Assembly: GCA_019916065.1 (NCBI GenBank)
Contig: CM034243.1
Location: 3,968,001 to 4,032,000, forward strand
From: Vitellaria paradoxa
Taxonomy: Eukaryota > Streptophyta > Magnoliopsida > Ericales > Sapotaceae
Length of the DNA: 64,000 nt
Reading direction: 5' to 3'
Shown: positions 3,579 to 63,217 of the stretch, in pieces
Layout of the letters: the number at the start of each line of letters is the position of its first letter
Position numbering within the stretch: the stretch's first letter is position 1
Position numbers and translations under genes: made by a program
The notes under the pieces: model-generated
Databases searched by the model: none
What the model was told of the DNA's origin: nothing
The model's input: the letters and a program-made list of their open reading frames with translations, nothing else

Positions 3579-4050
3579 CATGGGCGGATGCACATAGGGG
3601 CAAGGGGGGTCAATTGACCCCACTGGATCCCACTGAAAGTAAAATTTCTGTAGAAAATAGTATAATTTTTGAGATATTTTTGTACTTTTGCCCCTATAAA
3701 ATATATCTTTCAAAACAAATTGCCCTTATACTTTAAACAATTTACAAGTTTTGTCCCCCCACCGGAAGCAAAATTTCTTTAAAAAACAGTATAATTTTTG
3801 AGATATTTTTGTATTTTTACCCTTATAAAATATATCTTTCAAAACAAATTGTCCCTATACCTCAAGCAATTTACAAGTTTTGCCCCCATTGGAAGCAAAA
3901 TTTCTTTGGAAAATAGTATAATTTTTGAAGTATTTTTGTCCTTTTGTCCCCATAAAATATATCTCTCAAAACAGATTATCCATAAGTCAAGTACACTGTA
4001 TTTATTTATCGGCTTGACCCTACTGTAACAAAATCTTGGATCCGCCACTG
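3579..4050. mobile_element. Non-autonomous hAT-like element with internal 127-bp tandem repeats
   Basis: The left end reads CATGGGCGGATG and the reverse complement of the right end reads CAGTGGCGGATC, a short terminal inverted repeat of the hAT 'CAGNGGCGGA' type. Flanks CTTTTATG (3571-3578) and CTTTTTGT (4051-4058) look like a decayed 8-bp target duplication (6 of 8 bases). No transposase is encoded. Confidence 0.6.
3637..3990. repeat. Tandem repeat, about 2.8 units of 127-129 bp
   Basis: Units start at about 3637, 3766 and 3893. Each contains the block AAAATTTCT..ATAATTTTTGA, then ATAAAATATATCT and CAAGTTTTG. The array fills most of the hAT-like element at 3579-4050. Confidence 0.8.
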
Positions 4051-4108
4051 CTTTTTGTGGCCAACTAACGAATAGATGGTTCATTACTCTAAAACATTTA
4101 TTGCAGAA

Positions 4109-4363
4109 ATGGCTTTAAATGGAGCTGCTCCCCCAAGAGGAAGTGCAGCGGCGGCGGCTGCCAACCTGCGTAGGAGGAGGACAACAAGTGCTGGGGCGGC
4201 TGCAGGAGGGGCGAGTGGCACCATGCTCCAGTTTTACACAGATGATGCCCCGGGGCTCAAGATTTCTCCCAATGTTGTTCTTGTTATGAGCATTGGTTTC
4301 ATCGCTTTTGTTGCCATCCTTCATGTCATGGGTAAGCTCTACTTTGTCCGCAGAGAGGCTTGA
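4109..4363 (+). CDS. SEC61B: Protein transport protein Sec61 subunit beta
   Basis: This single coding exon gives an 84-residue protein, the usual length for plant Sec61 beta. Residues 1-38 are a cytosolic, Ala/Gly/Ser-rich tail with an RRRR cluster at 21-24. Residues 39-54 carry the conserved '[16 protein letters not shown]' block, and residues 55-75 form the single C-terminal membrane anchor, followed by '[10 protein letters not shown]'. The protein is the tail-anchored small subunit of the heterotrimeric Sec61 channel that moves nascent proteins into or across the ER membrane. An upstream in-frame ATG at 4076 was rejected because a clean acceptor (TTGCAG, 4101-4106) sits between it and the family start MALNG. 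The exon begins two bases before the ATG, so the 5' UTR must be spliced. Identification is firm. Confidence 0.96.
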
Positions 4364-8802: not shown

Positions 8803-9823
8803 TCAGCATACCTCGAAGTTGTGAGGGTGATGGAAAAGCCGGCGCTGGTGCTGCTCTTGCTGCTGCTGCTGTTGTTGCCGGAGGATCTCCTTCTGCCGCC
8901 GGAGCTCCATGACCTTCCGGTGTGAGTTGGAGTGCTGAGTCAGCACGAAGGTGGGGCTCGCCGCTGGTCGGTACTCCGGCACGAGCCGACCCGACTTGAA
9001 TCGTACGCCGCAAGCGTTGCATAGTGTCTTCGGCCCCAACGGTCCGGTCCGCCACTGCGGCGTCTTCTCAGACGCGCAGTGCGTGCATCGACGCGTCACC
9101 GCCTGCGACGTTTCCGACGGGGAAGGCGAATAGCGGTCTCTGGAAAACCCCGACGAACTCGACGAGCTCTCTCTTTTCTTTGCGGTGTTAGTAGAGGTGT
9201 TTCCTTTTGATTTCCCGATCATCAGAGTATCAGATTCCTGCGAGGAAGTCCATCCGTTGTTGGTTGAAGATGCTCTGGACCGTTTGCTCCGCGACCGGCC
9301 GTGAAATGAAGTTTCAGGTCGGAGATTTAAATTGCCGGCGAACTCGTTCGCCGGAAAATCAGTGAACGAGTCGTCCACGAAGTTCGATAACCATTCCAGC
9401 TCAGCTAAATCGTCACTCTACGCAAATATCACCAACCAAGAACCAAATTAGTCAATAATCTCTCCAAAAGCAAACACAACACTAGCTAAACACAGAGGCT
9501 CATAGCCATATATAGGCCACAGCTATACATCTACAACACACACAAACTACCAACGCTGGAGGTAGCTAGGATTCTGACGCACGGAGATGATATAGTATTA
9601 GTGTGCTTACAGGGACGCAGAGGTCGTCCGTGAAATTAGTGGACTGTTTGGGATTGGGCGCAGCATTACAGTGGCCGCCGGAGTTGTAGGCGTTAGCGGA
9701 GGAAGGGAGGTAGTGGTGGAGGTCGGAGTCGGCGGTGGAAGAAGAGAAAAGTTCGTCGTTGGAGAAGTCGAGAAGGTCGTCAATGCGAAAACACTCCGGC
9801 GCCGACATTCCGTACACATCCAT
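8803..9823 (-). CDS. GATA-type zinc-finger transcription factor, subfamily I, two exons
   Basis: The CDS is joined on the minus strand: exon 1 is 9823-9611 (71 codons, phase 0) with donor CCT|GTAAGC, and exon 2 is 9417-8803 with acceptor GCGTAG|AGTGAC. The product has 275 residues. The N-terminus has the acidic '[15 protein letters not shown]' region seen in GATA1/2/4-like proteins, and exon 2 opens with a second acidic block ('[13 protein letters not shown]'). Basic residues follow at about 112-120. A single zinc finger C-x2-C-x18-C-x2-C uses Cys182, 185, 204 and 207 and contains '[19 protein letters not shown]', then '[15 protein letters not shown]'. A poly-Gln stretch and the C-terminal 'FEVC' end the protein. 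Family knowledge: it binds (A/T)GATA(A/G) sites in the nucleus and acts in light and hormone responses. GTATGC at the stop resembles a donor, but 'FEVC' is a natural end. The closest paralogue cannot be named. Confidence 0.93.
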
Positions 9824-18266: not shown

Positions 18267-21200
18267 CTACTCCTCATTTTGGCTTTCATCTTTGACAAGC
18301 TTGACCATGTCATCAATTCGGAGAATTGTTATAGCTGCTTCAGTCGCAAACTGTACACGAACGAATAATTCAGGGAAAAACTTGGAACAACGCTTTCTCT
18401 TTAAGAAAAAATTCCATACTTAAGTGGTGAAAAGTCCCCAAATATAAATTTCACCTGAATTATCTTTACTTTGCTCATTGCAGGCTCAATGACTCCAGCT
18501 TCTAGATTGTTGCGGATACTTCCTTTTAAAAGATCAAGCCCCATGCTGCCACAATTTAAAAGAATCCGAACCAAATAAATGATTGAAAAATAGACACAAA
18601 CCCCCCCCCCCCAAAAAAAAAAATCACACTGCCACAAGCTAAGTAATGAATGACGATAAACCTAGCAGCCACTTACACATGAATGCATTTGTTTCCCTGA
18701 ACACTTTCTTTATTTAATATGCAATGACCTATCCACATGGGTAAATTTAGTTGGTCGCATGGCACAACATCAGGAACAAAGACATCATGCAGCAAAAGAT
18801 TGCATCCACCCCATTTACAAAGCAACTTGGGGAGGATAGCTTCTGAGTTCAATAAACCAGTCGAAGACAGATATAGCATGATTAGGCTATAAGTATATTC
18901 TTAAGAATTCAAGGAATGCTCTTCAAAATGCTTAACTTATAGGGGTATTCTATTCGTCCAATTACAACTTCATGTGACTTATCTCAAGATTATTTCCCTC
19001 AGAAAACTCTCCCTCTTTGTTCCTCTCTGCACCCTCCCTTATTCTATTCATCCAATTACAACTTCATGTGACTTATTTCAAGATTATTTCCCTCAGAAAA
19101 CTCTCCCTCTTTGTTCGTCTCTGCACCCTCCCTTCTCCCTTTTTCTCCTTTGCTTGTTTCTCCAGCTACTACTACTACACCAAAGTTCAAAAAGTGCTAG
19201 TAATCTAAACTACCAGCAAGTGGTGACATTAAAAGTTTTTATACATTCAAGACATATCTATCCATTTTTCTTTTAATTTTAATGCATGAACTTGAAACAA
19301 CTACAAACACACTATCTGATTAAACCCTCAGTACCAGCCACTTTATCTGTGGTCATCACTCATGTCACCCCACAAACCCTCTTCCGTAAGTGTGGTCCTT
19401 GTCGATCTTCATTATGCAAATCTTGCAAGTTCTAGCCTTCTCACAGCTAATCATGGTGCGCCACGTGACAATGACATCTTACATCTGTTAGTACTTGTAC
19501 CAAATGCCCTATTCAAATCAGAAGGTTGCATTATGTAACGACGACATTCAGTTCAGATATGCATAACTTCTAATGAGGCTGCTTAATCCTTGTCATCCTA
19601 AAAAATCACAAACCAGGAACTGTAACAGCAGAATAGCAAAAGTCTCTAGACTCTGTACTAACCACATCATTTGAGGAAATTTTTCAGTTCGTTTCAGTTG
19701 GTCAAATTAAATAGCAGTAACATCACTCGTCTTAAAGCTTCTCCGAAGCAAAGCGAAGAGAAAAAATAGGCCTGCACCGTGCTAAAACACACTACAATAC
19801 CTTGACAGATGCTTCTTATCTGCCTTTGTTTGTGCAGTGTGGTGGTAAGCACGCAGTTTAGCAACTAATTCAGTTGAATCCTTTGCCGCATTAACAGCAA
19901 GAACCTGCAACAAATAAATGTCGCTAGTGACAACATACAAACTCCAAAAAAAAGGAGGTGGTTGAAATTGTGAAAACAAGGAAGATATCATCAACTCATC
20001 ACATCTTCTGGACCTTTGGTATGATTAACAAAGATTCAGCAAATTCTGCAATAGCCAGCTGCTCCCGAGATCCTAATGTTGTGGCAAGATACTCTAAATA
20101 GACAGATAAAGCAGCCTCAACTGCACCTCCACCCGCTACCACCTGTTTCCACAATTCATGTCAATAACATAAACAAATAGGCCAATAACAATTATTGTAA
20201 TGCAGTTAAACCTTGTTTGAGACATTTTCTTTTATTGTACTACTAGAAAAAATCTTTTAAGGTGGGTAGTCATCACAGACATTGTTCCAAGAATGGGGAA
20301 CTACATAAAGATCGGATGTACCAATTCAAAATTAACTCAATATCAGGTGCAATGTACTCCAAGCTAGCATCTTGGGACTCTTCAGAACCCACAAAAATGA
20401 AACAAGTTCAATCCAAATTGTAGCATTTCAAATGAATTCTTCTTGCTTCTCATCACTTCAAAGTGAGAAAATATATATCTTAATTTCACAACATTTGCAC
20501 TTTAATGGTACGAATTAGACCCCTTGGCAGACAAAAGAATTAATTAATAAGCTCAACGTTATATGAAGAAGAAACAATATGTAGGCTGATAACACATGTT
20601 CTAGAAAGAGTTGGATGCCAACACTTCATCTTGGATAACTGACATCTCAAATTCTCCTTGGCCAGCAATGTACATGCAATATATATTATTGACATAACCA
20701 TCATTTGACAAAGTATACCGTATTGGATTCCAGGGTCCTCTTGACAATGCTCAAAGCATCATGCAAAGCTCTCTCCATCTCATCAAGCATAAAGTCATTT
20801 GCACCCCTGAGTATTAATGAAACCTGGATGTAAAACATGCAAAAATAAAGAAATAAGTAAATAAAACAGGTGATAATATACGCAAACCATATGCCCAGCA
20901 GGAATTGTAAACAAGAAATATAATTGTGCGACTTCCTATCGATCACATCCGTTTCCATCAAATTTTGCTTTAAAATAAGCTCAACACATGTGAGCCAAAT
21001 GAAAGCACTACACTACTATGCCACCACACTTGAGCCACTAGAAAATTTTAATAATGTAAACGAAATAAATTACATACAGCACTCGTGGTTTTTGTTCCTT
21101 TTATCAGGATCACATCATCATCAGAAATGCGCTCCTCAACTACTTCATTTGCATGACCAAGAAGCGATGAATCAAATGTTTCCTCTCCTTCCATATCAGC

Positions 21201-24200
21201 AAATGTTGAAACCTGCATAATACCACAGGATAAGAACAAAATAGATTGGATAATTTGTTCAAGATTCATCGAAATAAAGAGAAAAACATTATAGAACAAA
21301 AGTTAATGGGTGGCCATGATAAGTCAGACAAAATAGAAGAGAGAGCTAATTCCATGTCAATAATTGCAAGATACCCAACCAAAATACAGCACAGACAAGT
21401 AAAGAGGAAAAATAAAGCTAATGGATCAGAGAGAAGATAGAAGATGCAGTGGGAATTGTTACTTTTTTTTTCTTGGGTAAATCAACAAATTTTATTAAGG
21501 GCACTAAGAATGTGCCAAAAGACCAAGAGTATTACAATTCATATCAGAATATTATTCGATCTGGTCTCTATAAAATTCAAAAAGGAGTTCAACTTGGGTT
21601 CTATACCCCCTTCCACCCCGCTATACACAAAAAATAACTCTTCACTCAATACAAAGGAGTAGTCTGTCTTCAAAAATTCCCATTTCTTTCTCACCAAGCC
21701 AACCAACAAACACAGGAAAGTGCTAGCCTCCGTGCTTTACTCGATCTAGCGTTCAGGATATGCCCTCACAACTCACTCATCAAACTTTTCAAATTACTAG
21801 GAAAGACCCAATGCAACCCAAATCTTCCAATTACAATATCCCACAACACAGATGTCCATTGACAAAGGATTAACAAATGACTCTGTGTTTCTTCATCTTT
21901 CTTAGACAGCACGAATTCACTCCACCACATTATTTTTTTCTTCAAATTGTCAATGGTTAATATGATGTCTCTAATTGCACACCAAACAAAAAAGGCCACA
22001 TTCGGAGTGACCCCGGAGAGAGTTAAAAAAGGTAAAAAAAAACTATAATATTATGTCATTGTATCTTGAGATGCGCCTATTGTACCTGATTTTAAATTCA
22101 TAAATTCCCTCCAAAATCTCTACAAAAATAAAAAAATAGAAGTTATAGATGTTTTGTACATGACAGTAAATTTTGATAAGTACTTTTTTTCTTGAAAATT
22201 TTGAAAATATACCCTAGACCAAATATGGCATCACGTGGATTGGACTGGTTGAAAGCAGGAGGTCGATATCTACAGGTGGTTTCAAATAAATATTGACAAT
22301 CAAACTTGATTGCTAGGTGGATGAAGTAGATGCACAATGAGATTCACCCTTTTCTTGAACCACAGCTTGCTTTCTACGGGGGAACAAGTAAATCACATAA
22401 ACCAGTTTAAAGCTAACTTTTTCAGAATATTTTAGATAGCCTTGGGTCATAGTAAAATCCTTTTGTTAAAAAAAAAAAAAAAAGAAAAGAAGAAGAAGAA
22501 GAAGTACCAGATGATTCCATCATTCTAACCCTCGAGTTGAAAACCTGAAATGCCCAAGGATTATGCCCAATGGCAAAATAAAACCCCTTCTAATCTTGTG
22601 GTCACTTAAGCATGAAAAATACAAAGGATATCTTTGAGGAACAAAAATTGGGCATGGAGATTTGTAACTTAAATTAACAACCCCATGACTTCTCAAACTT
22701 ATAGCAATGTTTGTGCTCATATTCTTTTTTCCAAAAGCTTTGCCCATGCTTAGGGCCTCAAATTTTAGTACATTGATAAAGCTTTCATTCTCACCAATAT
22801 AGTGCAAGACAAACTTTTGCCAGTGGACACTATCATTAGTTAGCTAAAAGACTATAACAGATGATATCATTTTAGATGCTAAATTAAGAAACATACCATA
22901 GTTGCACCCGTTGCTTTGGCAACATGGCGAAGATCTTCTTTTCGAACACGTCTCACAGCAATTGCACCAGCCTCCACAAAGTACTGAAAACGTATTTAAG
23001 GAAACAGGATTAGAGAAAAAAAAATCCATCATCCACATCAATGAATTAGATGTAATTTGATAAATTCTGACAAACCTCCAGCATTTAACAACCCAAATAC
23101 ATAATAAAAGAAAGCCAACCCGAATACACTTGGAACATAAGAAACCAATGTTACAAAAACACGTGAAACATCTGGGCATAAATTGGACGAGACACAACAT
23201 GGGCATGTGTATATACGGACTATATCAGACATCCGTTCATTTAAAATGCCCACAAGCACTTCAAATGAATCTAGCCCCAGTGCAGAAATGAACAACAAAG
23301 GTAGAAAAAAAAAATAGCCATGAACACACACAGGAACATCTGCAATGTGACAGCCAGAACACAACCAAGAAATGTCTCCAAAACAAGGTTAGACAGTGGC
23401 CTTATAGAGGAAGCCAATAATGTGCAAGCATCAGAATCTATCATCAGTGCAAACTTACCTTAAGGGCCATGTCATCAATTCCTTTTGTAGTCAAAACAAC
23501 ATTGGCTCCAGCCTTTAAGAGCTTCTCAATCCGTTCTTTTGTCATATCAGCTTCTCTGTAAAGATAGAAAGTCTTTTAGTGCTGCTCATACTAGAGAGCC
23601 AAAAGTAGAAAAAAATGAAAAAGAAAAAGGCATACGCATGAATTTTCTTGCAGATAAAGTATTACAGAGCCACTTTAACTCTCTCACAACATGCCAAATA
23701 AATCTTAATTATTACATAGTTTGGTTCAGCAGCGAGGGAAGACCCGTTCCACATTTTCAATAGTTGTATTTTGGTTTATTTATTTTTGGGGATACAGCCA
23801 AATTTTATGCTTTCACCGAACAATTAGCATAGTTATGACATTTTTTGTCACCACCACCTAAAATCATGTGAAGTTTATACAACAATCACCTTTGACGAAT
23901 CTTTTCAAGCTCCCTTGGATCGGTGACTAAAACTTGGATACCCAATTGCATTTTTGTCTTCTGAAGATTAAAATCAAGACAGGCAATCCTTGCAGGGGCA
24001 ACTCTTACTGGCATTCCCTGGGCCGCACGGCCTGTATTTAAAGCATAGCCATTCAGCAGGTAGCTATCTTTTGCACTCTTTCCATGAGCTTTGAGAATAT
24101 TAATTGCCTAAAAAAAGCAACAATTCATTACAACCTAACCATCAGACCTTGAAGCTTAAATGGAGGCAGGCGCTGATTAAAAAATTAAAAACAAAACAAA

Positions 24201-30118: not shown

Positions 30119-31085
30119 CTCTTGCTGATTAACTTACGGGTGAGATTGGAGAGGGAATAACTAAGCTGGGTGTGAAATTCTTTGGAAACGTCAAATGGAG
30201 AACCAATGGATGCGAGGAGATGAAGTGGAACCCTAGATCGGCTCTGAGCGAGGATGGTAGCGTAGAATCAGAAGAGTGGGCGCAAAAGAGATTCTGGAAC
30301 GTCTCGGAACCGAAAAGAACAGTGCCGTTCCCCTGATTCGCCGAGTAAGCGTAGGGTTTTAGTTCCGGTCCGCGCCCTAAGGGCGTGTTTGGAACATAAA
30401 AAAGGTGCAAGTAGGAGATAGCTTTCCCTTCGTCTCTTGTCGGTTAGGCCGGTTGCTAACGTTTCTTTACTGTTTTTTTAATTTAAATGTTTATAAATTT
30501 TTAAAAATTATTAATAAAAATGTATTTAGTAAATTTTAAGTTATTTTTATTTTTATAAAAAATTTAAAATTTAAGTTCAAAATATAAATAAAAAATTATG
30601 ATTTCAAGTTCTTTTTTTTTTTCAAAAATATTTTGTCAATTTTTATTACATTTTAAATTTTTTTTCTTAACAAATTTTATTTCATGAGACACAAATTCAA
30701 GTTATTCAATCGATTTTGCTTTTTTTATTTAAATTACAAGATAATTATGCAGTAATTTTTAAATTAAAAACGAGTCATACATTTTTTTGATCAAAAATTG
30801 AAAAGGCAAAATGTGATTACTCATAACAAATAATAGAAAAACGTATAAATATAAAACACTGGAGTTAAAAAAATATATAAAATTTTATAAATATTTACAA
30901 ATATAAATTACGAAATTATAAAATTTAAATTTTTCACTCACAGTATAAAATTTAAATTTTTCATTTACTGTATAAAGTATGAGGTATTAACTTTTATAAA
31001 TTTACATAATTTCAAATATACCCAACTCTGTCTGCACAAACAAAATTTTAAAACTAAATTTTGATCAAAAAAATCATGCAGAAAC

Positions 31086-34626: not shown

Positions 34627-35711
34627 AAGTTTGTTTAGATAAAGCTTTAAATACTCATATTTGGTATGACAATCAACGCAGGCACAGATGGTAAGTTTCT
34701 CTTGGTGGAGGTTGCGGTTGTTAGTGGTTTGAGTCTTCATCCACACTGTTCCCAAGCTACATTCGGAGCACAAACTCACTCTGGAAATCTCCAAATTCCA
34801 CTGGTTAGTCTTTTGTTAGAAGTTTGATTTCATATGACCATCAAAAGACATGTGTTTTAAGATGAAACAGACAATCTCAGGCTCACTGTTTGGTTTGCAA
34901 TACTTTTCTGTACAGAATTAAAACTACATTTTGTTTTTTTTTTTTTTTTATGAAAAAATGCAAACACGTTTTCCAAAAATATGTCTGTAAAAATCAAACA
35001 CTAGGAAAACCGTCAGAACTAAATCTCTTGATCTGGTCGAGGTTGAGCTGCTCCAAATATTACAAAACTGTACTATTTTTTAGCATATGGGCCAAGGATC
35101 TGCTCTCAAAAACCTTTGATGAGCCCCAATCCTCCAGTAGTGTGATTCAGATTGACTTTCAGGCTCGGTACCAGCCTCTCGTTGACCCAACCTTCTAAAC
35201 TGTTGACTTTTGTTTAATTTTGTTGGGACGCCGCCATTTTCCTAGAAACGTGGTGGTGAAAAAGTGTTTCATTTGACGATTTTTATTGTGTCCTGAACAC
35301 CTGTAAAGTGAAACGATGTGTATTTTACTATTAAAATCATGAAAATCGTCATTCAATGCGAGAATTTCTCATAGCGAGTCGTTTGTGGTTGGTGTGCCAC
35401 CATGGATTGAGGCGGCGTTGGGGTGCGCAAGTATGCACAGGACCAACAAAATCAGAGCAATTGTGGATCCTTGGTTGTGTAGTTAGATCCATCTAATGAT
35501 ACTTAGTTAAAATAATTGAGAGAAGGTTTAAAGTTGTAAAAATTAATATAAATTTGTACGAATTATAATTTCATAACTCGTGTTGATGAGTAAAATATTT
35601 AGATTTTATAAAGATTTGTAGAATTTTATAAAATTTTATAAAACTCCAAACACACCTTAAATACATAGAAAATTGTATTTAAGTCATACTTTGTAATCTT
35701 TTAAGCTTATT
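34627..35711. other. Intergenic DNA left of the tandem-array element
   Basis: An open stretch of about 100 codons on plus (34890-35198) ends 'QARYQPLVDPTF' but matches nothing I recognise. 35500-35660 is MITE-like ('TTTATAAAACTCCAAACACACC'). No supported gene. Confidence 0.35.
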
Positions 35712-37654
35712 GGTCACTCCAAAAAAAATTATTGCTTTTAAGTCATATTTATATAGAAAGTATTGTGATTATGTCACACTTTTTAGTGGGTCTCACGAGT
35801 TTATTTTAAATATAATTTCTAATATTCCAAAAATACCATTTATTTCTATTATTAAGTTACATGGGAGTTGCCGAAAATCATGCTAACTAAGAATTATGTC
35901 CTTTTGTTTTTGTTTTCATTTCTTATAAATCATGTGAAGATGCATGCTTTGATTGATTTGAACGAGCACGAACTGAGATTAACGTCAGTCGAAGGAGGAA
36001 ACAGTACCAGTTATATAACTGACGGTACCACATCTATGTGGTACTGTTTCGTATAAAATGCATGCTCATATAAACACAATACCAGATGGATGAGAGTACC
36101 GCATACATACGGTATTGTTTCCCCTAAGATGCATGCTCTTACAAAAACAATACCGAATGTTTCTAGTATGCCAACAGGACCATGAAACACAAAAAAGAGT
36201 CACATATCTAACGCATGACTGACAATACTACATGGATGAGAGTACCACATACATGCGGTAATGTTTTCCCTAAGATGCATGCTCTTGCAAAAATAGTACC
36301 AAATGTTTCTAATATGCCAACAGTACCATAAAACACAAAAAGAAATCACATATCCAACAAATGGCTGATAGTACCACATAGATGAGAGTACCACATACTT
36401 GCGGTGCTATTTTGTAAATGATGCATGCTTTTGTAAAAACAGTACCGAATGTGTCAATATACAAATAGCACCATGAAACACAAAAAGAAGTCACATATCT
36501 AATGAATGGCTGACAGTACCACATAGATGAGAGTACCACATGCATGCGTTATTGTTTTCTCCTAATATGCATGCTTTGGCAAAAACAATACCGAATATTT
36601 CTAGTATGCCAACAGTACCATAAAACACAAAAAGAAGTCACATATCCAATGAAAGGCTGATAGTACCACATGTATACGATACCGAATGTGTCTAGTATGC
36701 AAACAGCACCATGAAATATAAAAAGAAGTCACATATCCAACGAACGACTGACAGTACCACATGGATGAGAGTACCCCATGCATGCGGTACTGTTTCCCCT
36801 AAGATGTATGCTCTTGCAAAAATAATACCGAATGTTTTTAATATGCCAATAGCACCATAAAACACAAAAAGAAGTCACATATCCAATGAATGGCTGACAG
36901 TACCACATGGATGAGAGTATCACATGTATACGATAATGTTTCGTATAAGATGCATGCTTTTACAAAAACAGTACCAAATGTATTTAATATGCAAACAATA
37001 CCATGAAATACAAAAAAGAAGTCACATATCCAACGAATGGCTGATAGTACCACATGGATGAGAGTACCACATGTATGCGGTACTGTTTCATATAAGATGC
37101 ATGTTCCTGCAAAAACAGTACGGAATGTTTCTAGTATGCCAACAGCATCATGAAATACAAAAAGAAATCACTTATCCAACGAATTGCTAACAGTACCATA
37201 TAGATGAGAGTACCACATGCTTGCGGTACTGTTTCTCCTAAAATGAATTTTCTTGCAAAAACAGTACCGAATGTGTCTAGTATACCAATAGCACCATAAA
37301 ACACAAAAAGAAGTCATTTATCCAACGAATTGCTGACAATACCACATGGATGAGAGTGCTAAATACTTGCGGTACTGTTTCTCCTAAGACTCTAGATTTG
37401 TTCGACGAAAATTTAGGAATGATGATCGATTGAGGTTTTTTCTGATAAGTTTTAATTATCTTTCCGAAATTAGTTTCGAATCTGTTTGTGACGAAGACGA
37501 AAAGTCGCAGACGTTTCTGATAAAACAGGCAATTTCAAAATGTCAGTGGAAAACATGCGATATTCTTTTTTATCTTTTCGTTGTAAGTGTGACTTATTCA
37601 CAAATAAATTTTTTAAGTATGACTAAAATTCATATAAATTCATAAATAGTGACC
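35712..37654. mobile_element. Long-TIR element carrying a 146-bp satellite-like array
   Basis: The left end (35712-35782) and the reverse complement of the right end (37654-37585) align over about 70 bp. Both start GGTCACT, have AGTCATA 29-30 bp in, and end TTGTGANTANGTCACACTT. Most of the interior is the tandem array. No transposase and no clear target duplication are seen. Long imperfect inverted repeats would fit a non-autonomous Mutator-like element, but this class call is inference. Confidence 0.6.
36014..37388. repeat. Tandem array, about nine 146-bp units
   Basis: The anchor CACATAT(C/T)(C/T)AA recurs at 36201, 36347, 36492, 36639, 36730, 36876, 37023, 37169 (CACTTAT) and 37315 (CATTTAT). 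Spacings are 146, 145, 147, 91, 146, 147, 146 and 146. An extra, more diverged unit precedes the first anchor. Each full unit contains GAGAGTACCACATGCATGCGGTACTGTTT-like sequence, ATGCATGCT, ACAGTACCGAATGT and AAACACAAAAAGAA. Spacing is not a multiple of three and every frame has stops, so the array is not coding. Confidence 0.95.
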
Positions 37655-38542
37655 GGCCTCCAAAAAACCCCTTAAATATATGTCTATCCTCTCTTTATCT
37701 TTCAAATTTTAATCATAAGCCATTATGAGCCTAAATTTGTGCTCACCTTCATCTAAAAATGTCACTCCAAATCTTTGAAGGAATTAATTAAGGGCCCGTA
37801 TTTGAACCTAATCTATGGGTTTCCCCATAATCTGTGTACTAATTAACTATGGGCCCATATCTGCACCGGATTTGTGGAGCTCCCCTCCCCACCCATCAAC
37901 GAAGAAAAGTGAACAATTGTAACCGAGCCACGTATATGGTGCGTTGGAAATTATATAAATCTGTAAAATTTATATCCTCATAATTCATATTATAAATAAA
38001 AATATTTAAATTTTAAAAAGGTTGGTAGAAGTTTATAAAGTTACAATTACTCCAATAACCTTTAGCCAAAAGAATTTCTCATTTTTTGTGTCAGAGAAAG
38101 TGAAAGGGAAAGATGAGAATTATTGATGGGACTGAAATGGTACGAGAGAAAGCCGTGTATGAAATCATTTTTGAAAACATTCTTTTTTTTCCTTTGAGAA
38201 ATAATCACTGGTAGCAGCAGCGCGCAAATAAAAATAAATATGTACATGTGTTTCGGTTGGCACCGACAGCACAAGTTTTCACTGACACTTTTTAGTAATG
38301 CTTTTATTTTTTGATATTCACAAGGGCCCCACCCCCCCTCCCCCAAAAAAAAAGAATTACCACATATATGTGGCGTGGCGTGGCGTGGCGTGGCGTGGCG
38401 TTTGGGGGGGGGGGGGGATGACTTGACTGGGATCTAATCTGCGAATGTGGAGCCATCAATTACTGATATGAGAGAAAAAGAGGAGGTAGGAAAATAAATT
38501 ATAATATTTTGCCAGTTTTTAGCATTTTAATGTTTTTATTAT
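37655..38542. other. Intergenic DNA with GTGGC repeat
   Basis: 38369-38400 has five or six head-to-tail GTGGC pentamers followed by a G14 run (38404-38417). No gene is recognised. Confidence 0.5.
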
Positions 38543-42565: not shown

Positions 42566-42580
42566 TAAATGTTATTTAGG

Positions 42581-43366
42581 TGGCATTTAATTTTATTTTT
42601 TATTTTTTATTTCTTATTTTTATTTTATGTGTTAAAAATTTTAAAACGAGAAAGTAAAAAATACTCTACTTTCTTTGTTTTGAAATTTTTTTTTATTTTT
42701 TGTTAAAAATTCTCAAAATAATTTTTTGTCATTTTTATTTTATGTGTAAATTTATTTTCTGTTTTCGAAAATAAATTTTAAAAATATAAAGTGACATTTA
42801 GTTTACTTTTTTATTTTCTATTTTCTATTTTTGTTTTATGTGTTAAAAATTCCAAAACAAGAAAACAAAAAATACTCTATTTTTTTATTTTAAGATTTTT
42901 CTTATTTTTTTTGTTAAAAACTCTCAAAAAGACTTTTTACCATTTTTTATTTCATGTATAAATTCATTTTCGATTTTCGAAAATAAATTTTCAAAACACA
43001 AGTGATCAAATGAATTTTGAGCTGTTTTTCTTATTTTCAAAAGCACAAAGGGTGTGTTTGGAGTGAAAAAAATAAGATAAATTGAGAGTTCGTAATACGT
43101 GTAGTGAAAGAAAAAAGTTGATGTGATATAAAGTTAACAGAGATTTATAGAATTTTTTGTTATTTGTTTGCAAACCAAACGGAGTCAAAATAAAAAATAA
43201 ACTCAAAACAGAAAATAAAAAAACAAACCAAATGACCCCTAAGTAACTAAATAAGTTTTGAATTGTTTTCCTTATTTTTAAAAGTACAAAATAAAAAATA
43301 AATTCAAAACAGAAAATAAAAAACAAAAACAGAAAACAGATAAAAACAAACTATATGACACATTAG
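42581..43366. repeat. Internally duplicated element, host of a nested MITE
   Basis: Units 42581-42791 and 42792-43002 are a tandem pair (TGRCATTTA start, GTTAAAAAT, CGAAAATAAATTTT end). They are followed by two shorter units at 43003 and 43243 (TTTTGARTTGTTTTYCTTATT). The right end reads as a partial inverted copy of the left end (ACAAACTATATGACA). The third unit is split by the MITE at 43050-43186. Confidence 0.65.
43050..43186. mobile_element. Tourist-like MITE, 137 bp, nested, AAA target duplication
   Basis: The left end GGGTGTGTTTGGAGTG and the reverse complement of the right end GACTCCGTTTGG form an inverted repeat. AAA lies on both sides (43047-43049, 43187-43189). The next tandem unit (43243 on) preserves the uninterrupted site, TACAAAATAAAAAATAAA. 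The core 'GAGAGTTCGTAATACGTG' links it to the 12393 copy. Confidence 0.82.
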
Positions 43367-45312: not shown

Positions 45313-47430
45313 ATTTTTAAACAAAAGCAGACTCACTTAAAAGCTATACAAAGTTTAAGACAAACCCAACTCACCAACATGCTGAAACTTGAGAAAATTG
45401 CAAAGGAAGAGACTTTTGAAGCCACAAGAGAGATCCAGCTGATCTCCAAGATGACCCACAAACATCAAGGAAATAAGCTATATATAGATAGAACTGTAAA
45501 AAGCTGACACAGATATGAGAGGCCATGCAAGTCATAGCTGCCTGCTTCTGCATTTCTTCTACAAACTTGCCCCTCCAAATGCTCTTTGTAACTCCGAGCT
45601 AAGTTTCCATCGATTAGTGGTGCTCTCTGACATGGCTTTTCATCTTTTCTCTCCATCTTTCCATGGAGGCCGCTAACACTTCCTTAACGAATTAAATAAA
45701 TATATTATATATGCACATATATATTTTAATTTCATGAGCGAAAGAATAAGAAATGATACAGTCTTGAAAAAAAGGTAACAGCTGGCATAACGGTAACAGA
45801 AAATAATAACTATAACAAAAGTGTAATGGGAAAAACAAAAAAAAAATGTAATAGAAATGTAGAAATCTGAAAATATTAATAATGGTCAAATTTTAAAACT
45901 TACGATACGTAACACATGTTTTTCTACTCTTGAATTTAATTGATATATTAACACAGAATATGATTTTAGTAATTTGGAACCATCTTGTAATAGAAAGCAC
46001 GGAAGCAAGCGAGCATAGTGTGGTATATAGTTTAGATTTCACGGGTGTGACCATATAATGGTAACTAAATCAGTTAAACTAGTTGGAGTTGGATATATAT
46101 TGATAATGATGGAAGCAGCTAGAACTAAATAAATTATAGGCAGAGCTGTAGTGCCCCCACCAAGTCCTGTGATTTTGACCTAATTCATCACCATTGTCAC
46201 AATCATTCCTTTCCTTGTAAAGAACCTTCGAGTTTGGAGTCTTTGATCAGAAATATCAGCCAAGTTATTTTATTTATTATTCATTTTTATTTTTTATTTC
46301 CCGGTAAGGGTATTTTAGTTGGGGAAGCAATACCCATCGCTTGCTCTAACTTATTTTTTTTAATGTTATTTTATTGTAAAAATATTTTAAAAAGCAAAAC
46401 TAATTTATTAAAAATAATTATGTAATAAAAATATACTTTTTGGATCCCATCCGATCTAGATTTTTAACTCAAAATATGTAATTTTTCAAACTTAAAAACA
46501 TTGCAAACACCCCTCAATTTAGTATTCTCTCCCGTCACTCAAATTCTATGCATGTATATATTTACATTTCCCCCCCTCTTGATCCCTAGTATAGATATAT
46601 GTAAAAGCTTATATTTAATGCATGGAATTGAATATAATGCAAAATTAATTAAGGTAGAGACTCATCCCCATGTTTACAATTTTGTAAGAAGGTGATAACA
46701 ACGTTCTGCATATTAAAAACTCATTTTATATTTTATGTTTTCTTTCAATATTTTAATTGGTTTTGTATAGATTATTCGTGTGTTTAGAATTTAAAAAAAA
46801 ATTATAAATTTTTATAAATTACATCTCAAAATAGATGGAAAATATAAACAATTAAAAGAAATTTAAAATTTTATAACAATTTAATTATGAGGTTCCAAAT
46901 GGAGAAAATATTGTTTGTGTACTTTTAATGTATTGCGATTTAGCTTTCTATTATCCGTCATCATTTTTTTAAAATAATTCAATATTTTGAATATTATGCT
47001 AAAGTGAAAAAAAAAAAAATCCACCTAGTCGATTTACGCACTTGAAGTTGTCGCAAGGCATGAAATTTTATCCCTTTCTTTGTCCATATACAGCGGGGCA
47101 TGCCAGCTTGTCCTTTTGTTGTAATAAACTACTCACCGGGGGGGGGGGGGGGAGAATTTGGACACAACGTGTGGCACCCCTTGTCAGGACATGTGGACAA
47201 ACGGCCCCACCACATCGAGGACAGTTGAGGAGAGTTGAAAGAGTACAAAGAGGAAGGAAATGAAAATAGATAAAAAATTTTCATTTCTGTAGAGGATGTT
47301 AGGATTGAAAAAAAATTAATATAATTGATAAAAATTATAATTTTATAATTCACGCAGTATGTAAAAAAATTAAATTTTACAAATATTTATAGATATCTAT
47401 TATGATTTATGGAGTTTCCAAATAGAATCA
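45313..47430. other. Intergenic DNA right of the TRIM-like element
   Basis: On the minus strand 45656-45465 is open for 63 codons from an ATG ('MERKDEKPCQRAPLIDGN'), but no family is recognised and no splice partners were found. G15 lies at 47138-47152 in a GC-richer patch at 47090-47240. Otherwise AT-rich. Confidence 0.35.
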
Positions 47431-52607: not shown

Positions 52608-52663
52608 GGGTTTCCATCTGCAGTTTGTGTTCATCGATTCAAGGCTCCAAGTAGCCGTCAGCA

Positions 52664-52806
52664 ATGGTGGATCTTCAGACTGTATGCTGTATGTGCGGTG
52701 ATGTAGGCTTCCCCGACAAGCTGTTCCGCTGCAGCAAGTGCCACCACCGCTTTCAGCACTCGTATGCCGCCGCCGCCACCAACCCCCTTCATTTACACAC
52801 ATCATC

Positions 52807-52847
<41 letters not shown>

Positions 52848-53412
52848 CACACACACACATCATAATCACCTTCACTCACATACCCTCCATGAAATTTCAT
52901 GTTCTGTTGTCATTTTAAGCATATACCCATCTAGAAGAAACACCACCCAACAGCCGCCGCCCACCACCAACCAATCTTCATGATTCATATTACAATTCTT
53001 CCTGAACTGTCCATGAGTTTTTTCTTCTTTTTTTTTTAATTATTACTATTATTTTCTATGATCTGAATTGAATTATATTCAAACGTTTTCATCAACTGTG
53101 TGGTATAGGTATTGTAGCAACTACTACAGCGAGTCATCGGAGCCAATTGAACTCTGCGATTGGTGCCAAACGGAAGAGAAAAGTTCATCAAGACACAGCG
53201 CTTCTTCAAAGAAATCTTCGGCAGCAGCCGCCGGAAATGAGGCCACCGCCGCCACCAACAGATCCGAGTACTCCGGCGACAAGATCAAGCAACACGATCA
53301 CCGGGAAGATCAGAGCGCGGCCGCCGCCGAGAAGGGAAAGAATCCGACCGGCGCGCCTTCTCCGAGACCCACTACCCGCAGGTACAAGCTTCTCAAGGAT
53401 GTCATGTGTTGA
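52664..53412 (+). CDS. Small PHD-like zinc-finger protein, two exons
   Basis: Exon 1 is 52664-52761 (donor CTC|GTATGC), the intron is 347 nt, and exon 2 is 53109-53412 (acceptor GTATAG|GTATTG), joining in phase 2 to a 133-residue protein ending TGA. Residues 8-52 form a C4HC3 finger: C8/C9..C11, C23-x2-C26, H32-x2-C35 and C49-x2-C52. It contains 'CGDVGFPDKLFRC' and 'YCSNYYSES..PIELCDWC', the pattern of the short plant proteins annotated as RING/FYVE/PHD superfamily. Residues 53-130 are low-complexity (Ser, Ala, Lys) and end in a basic 'RRYKLLKDVMC'. PHD fingers commonly read histone tails, but a substrate for this short type is not known to me, so function is unassigned. The finger is split by the intron between H32 and C35, and a (CA)n run lies in that intron. 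Confidence 0.9.
52807..52859. repeat. (CA)n microsatellite in the intron of the PHD-like gene
   Basis: A CA run with one AA interruption begins 44 bases after the donor site. Confidence 0.95.
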
Positions 53413-62900: not shown

Positions 62901-63217
62901 GTGATCCACGGTGTATTTAAAATTGTATAAATTTAATAAATTTATAAAAGTTTGTATTTTATATTTTGTGTAGTGATTAAAAACTTAAATTTTATAATCT
63001 TATAATTCATATTTGTTGAGATTTGTAAAGTTTTATATATATTTTTTTAATTTCAAACGGTGTTATCATTAATTTTGGGATGTGCGTTTCAAACAACGTA
63101 CAATGATTAGATAAATGGAAATATTATTTTCCAAAAAATAATATTAAAGGATGTAATTATGATAATTTTACAATAAAATAACACTAAATATAATACTACA
63201 AATACCAAATGGTCTTT
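59938..63217. other. AT-rich intergenic DNA
   Basis: A (GA)n run lies at 60040-60053, an (AT)n(GTAT)n run at 62036-62076, and a CT run at 62568-62593. A short open stretch from ATG 62443 ('MAVFKSNGTVSKKMKS') ends before a GTATAT donor-like site, but no second exon was found. No supported gene. Confidence 0.35.

Follow-up and report, generated by a model that had tools for sequence, protein, structure and literature searches.

The window analysed here, a stretch of 64,000 nucleotides from Vitellaria paradoxa (contig CM034243.1, positions 3,968,001 to 4,032,000), carries what is very probably one dead member of a non-autonomous Mutator-like family, with degenerate terminal inverted repeats (TIRs) and a tandem array as its interior. 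This assignment is based on ends that are shared among copies, an array that lies between them, target-site duplications (TSDs) of 8-11 bp, GTCA boxes in phase with the tips and the lack of a coding domain. A preliminary description of the same DNA had proposed a non-autonomous DNA transposon, perhaps Mutator-like, and this proposal is supported by copies in the same genome, with their shared ends and TSDs. At least 45 places, the window included, possess both ends, and between them lies the same tandem array at 3 to 16 units. The TSDs show that the array moved as a whole, and the first stages in the history of a transposon-borne satellite are thus open to direct observation. A motif repeated in several registers and boxes phased to the tips provide concrete leads on the purpose of the array and of the ends.

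No coding capacity was detected in the window copy, in which all five listed open reading frames of at least 75 amino acids lack a Pfam match. Similarly, Pfam revealed no transposase in the 33 frames scanned of the 99 listed for the window. The element has no match in collections of plasmid, phage, viral and prokaryote contigs, as expected for plant DNA.

Copies of the element in the genome

The source genome (667 Mb in 71 contigs) was searched with the whole element, and the best 40 of 3085 candidates were scored. The 106 matches obtained were merged into 40 places, which include the window; the other 39 were inspected together with flanks of about 600-1000 bp. In 37 of the 40 places, the window counted, both ends surround the 146-bp array, so the further copies with the same ends that the preliminary description had called for do exist. 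The remaining three (L038, L041 and L047) lack one recognisable end, also when a profile is used. A second search, with two units alone (best 40 of 1027 candidates scored), returned at least 274 matches, and among the matches listed these form short clusters and include 17 places beyond the first 40. Eight of these 17 were examined, and in all eight both ends are present, with 6-11 full units between them. An array without ends, which had been named in advance as an observation that would show the inverted repeat to be coincidental, was therefore not seen in these eight places. Altogether 48 places were examined, of which 45 have both ends.

Two pairs of copies (L019 with L033 and L029 with L030) have a TSD in common and therefore represent two duplicated insertions. 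In L033 (C7:32266064-32270592) the array is split by a stretch of about 680 bp that is not array sequence. Since this copy has its target duplication in common with L019, the locus must have been duplicated, with one of the pair differing by the insert of about 680 bp.

The surroundings of the window copy contain other repeats and several pieces of host genes. A dispersed AT-rich repeat is found at 35540-35660, 37948-38042, 47311-47393 and 62916-63037, and on the reverse strand at 30860-31016, with matched stretches of 52-125 bp that are 70-79% alike; the repeat resembles a MITE family, in that GGTGCGTTGGAA and TCCAATAACC delimit its copy at 37.9 kb. A fragment of a LINE-type retroelement occupies 21766-23388 (reverse strand), with a zf-RVT domain at 21766-22050, and the three frames that neighbour this domain have no Pfam match. 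Direct repeats are present at 3629-3981 (a 129-bp unit, 2.8 copies, 85%), at 18946-19134 (a 94-bp unit, two copies, 96%) and at 42580-42996 (a 211-bp unit, two copies, 83%). The host gene pieces comprise Sec61 beta (4076-4363, forward), a GATA factor (8803-9417, reverse), a Cpn60/TCP-1 fragment that falls below the Pfam cut-off (20701-21012, reverse) and a plant PHD-finger protein (52655-53412, forward). The best relatives of the GATA factor, among the best 120 of 3728 candidates, are from Sarracenia (79%), Diospyros (77%) and Bertholletia (74%), together with a match of 79% over 88% of the length from Davidia. Sarracenia, Bertholletia and Diospyros belong to the Ericales and Davidia to the Cornales. 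This gene thus indicates a host among the asterids, probably within the Ericales.

Borders, target-site duplications and the boxes at the ends

The preliminary description placed the outer borders at 35712 and 37654, giving an element of 1.94 kb with GGTCACT at its edge. These borders are not borne out. Homology over 37 aligned copies spans about 35666 to about 37671, and because it continues past both positions GGTCACT cannot be the outer edge. Indeed, the first G of this sequence does not belong to the family, the consensus of which reads AGTCACT. No TSD abuts 35712 and 37654. A 10-bp repeat near these positions, CTCCAAAAAA, was considered as a TSD and rejected, as both of its copies lie inside the element defined by the family; an exact 10-bp repeat is found in range for 5 of 1000 random point pairs, which gives the chance level for this candidate.

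At the usual family border the window copy is flanked on the left by TTAAATACA (35657-35665) and on the right by TTAAATATA (37672-37680), which agree at 8 of 9 bases with a C/T difference. When the frame is shifted by two bases from this border, CCTTAAATA at 35655-35663 is repeated exactly, 9 of 9, at 37670-37678. Taken by itself, the direct match between the outer flanks is weak, as it is equalled by 47 of 2978 random pairs, yet the true TSD, as defined by the borders of the family, lies within it. For the family as a whole, TSDs were scored as their length minus 3 for each mismatch, with mispaired ends as the control. A score of at least 8 was obtained for 29 of 37 copies and for 19 of 400 mispaired controls, a score of at least 9 for 20 of 37 and 4 of 400, and a score of at least 10 for 9 of 37 and 0 of 400. 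With the two duplicated insertions taken into account, 27 of 35 independent insertions reach 8. Eight held-out copies, which were not used to set the borders, behave in the same way (7 of 8, compared with 5 of 56 controls). The lengths of the TSDs that score at least 8 are 9 bp (11 copies), 8 bp (7), 11 bp (6) and 10 bp (5); a score of 8 was not reached in 8 of the 37 copies, as decay would leave. The flanking duplications of 8-11 bp that had been anticipated are therefore present, with a mode of 9 bp.

The imperfect inverted arms of about 70 bp that had been described are real: the left arm (35712-35784) and the reverse complement of the right arm (37582-37654) are identical in 52 of 75 columns. 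The arms were compared end to end with other 73-mers of the window, on both strands, tiled every 10 bases and with near neighbours excluded, and their score of 27 was reached by none of 12,722 (the best were 0 for the left arm and 15 for the right). In local alignment the gap is smaller, with a score of 38 against best values of 33 (left) and 35 (right). None of 1000 Markov sequences attained this local score, but 21 of 989 random real pairs of 301 bp and 3 of 990 pairs of 161 bp from the AT-rich window did. Judged on the window alone, the arms are thus suggestive.

The manner in which the arms had been paired needs to be corrected, as it is one box out of register; the family ends match each other chiefly where the distances from the two tips are equal. 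When the right-end profile was run on the left ends, 34 of 72 hits on the opposite strand fell at an offset of -1, with the best E-values among them, and a second cluster of 31 hits at offsets 26 to 35 corresponds to the earlier pairing. The ends are accordingly inverted in tip register, in a degenerate form (best E 1e-5 in the 37 left ends searched), and the inversion does not extend to the outermost bases of the tips.

Aligned over 37 copies, the left end spans 35666-35790 (forward), with inward GTCA boxes at 35683, 35713, 35742 and 35773, and the right end 37575-37671 (reverse), with inward boxes at 37648, 37618 and 37588. In the family consensus the distances of the GTCA[CT] boxes from the tips are 17, 47, 76 and 107 nt on the left and 18, 48 and 78 nt on the right, so that three boxes per end are in matched phase (17/18, 47/48 and 76/78). 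Chains of at least three GTCA[CT][AT] boxes at 28-32 bp occur in the window only at these ends and in none of 30 shuffles of one strand, although the pattern was chosen after looking. A candidate for a fourth box at the right end was discarded, as its 7 mismatches are matched at 48% of random positions. It is only through a six-base core that the two GGTCACT boxes belong to the series, since they differ from the 14-bp box consensus by 7 and 8 mismatches, which is the level of chance. From the phase alone, we infer that the GTCA boxes are putative binding sites for a transposase. Among the copies the boxes are no better conserved than the spacers (0.049 and 0.039 non-deamination changes per column, respectively; P = 0.71), and for this reason the role in binding is put forward conditionally.

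The array, its motif and the decay of the copies

Inward from the left end, the left interior (35791-36000) has no tandem structure, apart from a stray unit match of 16 columns at 35937. The array then begins, on the forward strand, with a divergent partial unit (36001-36071) that contains the dyad GTACCACAT-CT-ATGTGGTAC and that scores 52, compared with a maximum of 27 among 1441 random 201-mers. Full 146-bp units 1-4 (36072-36655) are followed by unit 5, shortened to 91 bp (36656-36746), by full units 6-9 (36747-37331) and by a partial last unit (37332-37390). The count of about nine 146-bp units given previously was consequently close: eight units are full length (145-147 bp), another measures 91 bp, and the array has a partial unit at either edge. 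The right interior (37391-37574) is of variable length in other copies, some of which have extra motif repeats. The mean pairwise identity of the eight full window units is 83.0%.

The number of units varies among copies, as had been predicted. Over 37 copies it ranges from 3 to 16 full units, distributed as 3 (one copy), 6 (four), 7 (eight), 8 (seven), 9 (three), 10 (four), 11 (seven), 12 (one), 13 (one) and 16 (one), and its correlation with element length is 0.89. A comparison of 324 full units gave an identity of 0.864 within copies and 0.849 between them. That these values are nearly alike suggests that the array travels with the element and was present in the progenitor, and there was no sign that the repeat was captured from elsewhere. 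For 65 of the 324 units the best match is in the same copy, compared with 8.4 expected by chance, which points to some local turnover of units.

Several other properties of the array were examined. The consensus unit contains a dyad of 10 pairs out of 11, equalled in 1 of 300 shuffles; in the search for a hairpin or RNA role, a single unit folded no better than its shuffles (z -1.28, 23 of 200), and there was no match in Rfam. A 109-amino acid reading frame in the array has no relatives at E up to 10 and no Pfam match. The unit includes a box, AAGTCACA, that resembles the inner box of the right end; exact AAGTCA[CT]A occurs 5 times in the array and 11 times in the remaining window, and the AAGTCACA boxes of the array may be one event that was copied, which we offer as a lead only. 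We also observed that 36072-37390 is rich in TGCATG/CATGCA (10 compared with 1.2 expected) and in GTAC (25 compared with 2.9), which we take to be the cores recognised by B3 factors and SBP-box proteins.

The changes that separate units from their consensus are strongly biased. In the eight full units of the window, C>T and G>A account for 82 of 121 changes and their reverse for 4, a ratio of 20.5 that exceeds those of four simulated rate pairs (0.78-7.75). These changes affect the three contexts alike (CG, 6 of 48; CHG, 18 of 96; CHH, 58 of 368). Of the 4352 changes counted in the 324 units of the family, 2699 are C>T or G>A, compared with 701 in the opposite direction; in our opinion this ratio is weaker than that of the window because older differences are included. 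Such a pattern suggests that the copies are, or have been, methylated by the host and are decaying as methylated DNA does.

A short motif recurs throughout the array. The ACAGTACC-type motif is placed in 17-bp steps inside the 146-bp unit, which holds five CAGTACCA-like sites. Counts of CAGTACC/GGTACTG were taken from 35 copies, with the second copies of duplicated insertions dropped, and amount to 11.24 per kb in the arrays (580 in 51,602 bases), 2.12 in the right interiors (23 in 10,867), 0.15 in the left interiors (2 in 13,077) and 0.03 in the flanks (1 in 39,934). L037, L042, L043 and L046 additionally carry a 17-18-bp repeat (7.5-8.2 copies) and L027, L032 and L040 a 46-47-bp repeat (about 2 copies), and both repeats contain the motif, exactly or in a closely similar form. 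Because part of the 146-bp unit is itself similar to the 17-18-bp repeat, the scales of repetition are not independent.

These observations raise the question of whether the array might have a function beyond that of a passenger. It could serve as a platform of short motifs at which a protein encoded by the element would strip off DNA methylation and so counter RNA-directed DNA methylation by the host, much as VANC targets do in the VANDAL elements of Arabidopsis. The contrast in motif density between arrays and flanks, and the multiplication of the motif in 17-bp steps, in the 146-bp unit and in the 17-18-bp and 46-47-bp repeats, would fit this idea. VANC targets, as far as passages of two papers describe them, are likewise motif-bearing tandem repeats that differ between related elements, and VANDALs also have degenerate TIRs (PMC5735166, PMC10398659). 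We nevertheless consider the idea unlikely, because the motif sites decay like their surroundings: in 324 units deamination is 0.157 inside and 0.139 outside them (P = 0.24), and at GTACC sites the values are 0.142 and 0.148 (P = 0.58). Nor was protection of the motif apparent in the eight units of the window (P = 0.11 and 0.32). The published VANC21 motif, YAGTATTAY, occurs 0 times in the window array, a likeness to it with two mismatches is meaningless since 712 of 1000 shuffled versions of the unit show as much, and no VANC-like gene is known here. RY-like sites are less deaminated (0.099 compared with 0.153), with a nominal, uncorrected P = 0.028 for one of four masks. By analogy with the VANDALs, a broader proposal, and a slightly more doubtful one, would be that it is the ACAGTACC motif and not the 146-bp unit that is multiplied, and that arrays recruit an element-encoded VANC-like anti-silencing protein outside Arabidopsis. 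If this were true, such transposon-borne satellites would be by-products of a contest between silencing and anti-silencing.

Alternative readings and known parallels

The mechanism that we envisage for the Mutator-like family has four steps. A Mutator-type transposase supplied by another element would grip the phased GTCA boxes and cut at the tips. The array, already present in the family progenitor, would be carried along with the element. Slippage or unequal exchange would later add some units to individual copies and remove others. Finally, methylation by the host would silence the copies, and their cytosines would then decay.

A source of such a transposase was sought by scoring the best 150 of 1211 candidates for PF10551, the MULE transposase domain, which is common in this genome. 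The smallest distance between one of the 150 scored and one of the 40 copies is 36 kb, and 30 transposase loci, each about 3.3 kb long, show no family end at E <= 1. One MULE transposase domain lies 0.1-0.4 kb to the left of the window (G000:C11:3967603-3967887, reverse strand), in an open frame of 770 amino acids. It is among the strongest such matches in the genome, and its 3.3-kb locus (L049) is without a family end.

It is improbable that the family belongs to a different cut-and-paste superfamily with similar duplication lengths. In favour of such an assignment, no partner transposase was found and the tips are not inverted; against it, the TSDs, with a mode of 9 and a range of 8-11 bp, are close to the 9-11 bp given for MULEs, the TIRs of which are typically 100-500 bp (in passages of PMC3310237). 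A free-standing minisatellite flanked by coincidental arms would account for the fact that local alignment of the arms alone is not exceptional for the window. It would leave unexplained why the same ends surround the array in 45 of 48 places, with TSDs, and we regard it as hardly credible. The probability of a Helitron with a central array is just as slight, because the family has inverted ends and TSDs of 8-11 bp. To our knowledge, Helitrons have neither. The attraction of that reading is that such arrays are frequent in Helitrons, according to part of the literature (PMC12628747).

The closest parallel to the Mutator-like family comes from Vaccinium, which is probably of the same plant order as the host of this element. 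Passages of PMC7290377 describe Vaccinium DNA transposons that hold tandem VaccSat3 units of 152-154 bp. Like DNA9-20_VMa and related Vaccinium elements, the Vitellaria family combines a DNA transposon with a satellite-like tandem interior, and DNA9-20_VMa has TSDs of 9 bp. As far as tested, the units themselves are unlike, in that 7 of 12 primers published in that work have 8-12 mismatches at their best position in the unit. VaccSat1 has a unit of equal length, with a GC content of 18.4% (PMC7290377, in part) compared with 36.8% in the Vitellaria unit.

Other comparisons likewise show both agreement and difference. Plant MULEs, including those with multiple TIRs, resemble the family in TSDs of about 9-11 bp, in inverted ends and in an interior that may be non-coding, and differ from it in that the family TIRs are about 100 bp, compared with a typical 100-500 bp (passages of PMC3310237), degenerate and not inverted at the tips. 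Arabidopsis VANDAL21 and VANDAL6 also have TIRs that are degenerate, and a single short motif abounds in their non-coding tandem repeats (PMC5735166 and PMC10398659, as excerpted); the motif is a different one, no VANC gene was found in our case, and the family shows no protection from methylation decay. The Tetris foldback element of Drosophila virilis is also non-autonomous, with internal tandem repeats able to seed satellites, although in Tetris the repeats lie inside the TIRs (PMC4079207, in part). The miDNA4 MITE of Xenopus is an inverted-repeat element with a variable internal array, but of the Tc1/mariner type (passages of PMC12628747 and PMC9659126). This kind of element has thus already been described, including in Vaccinium, and the Vitellaria family is a good additional example of it.
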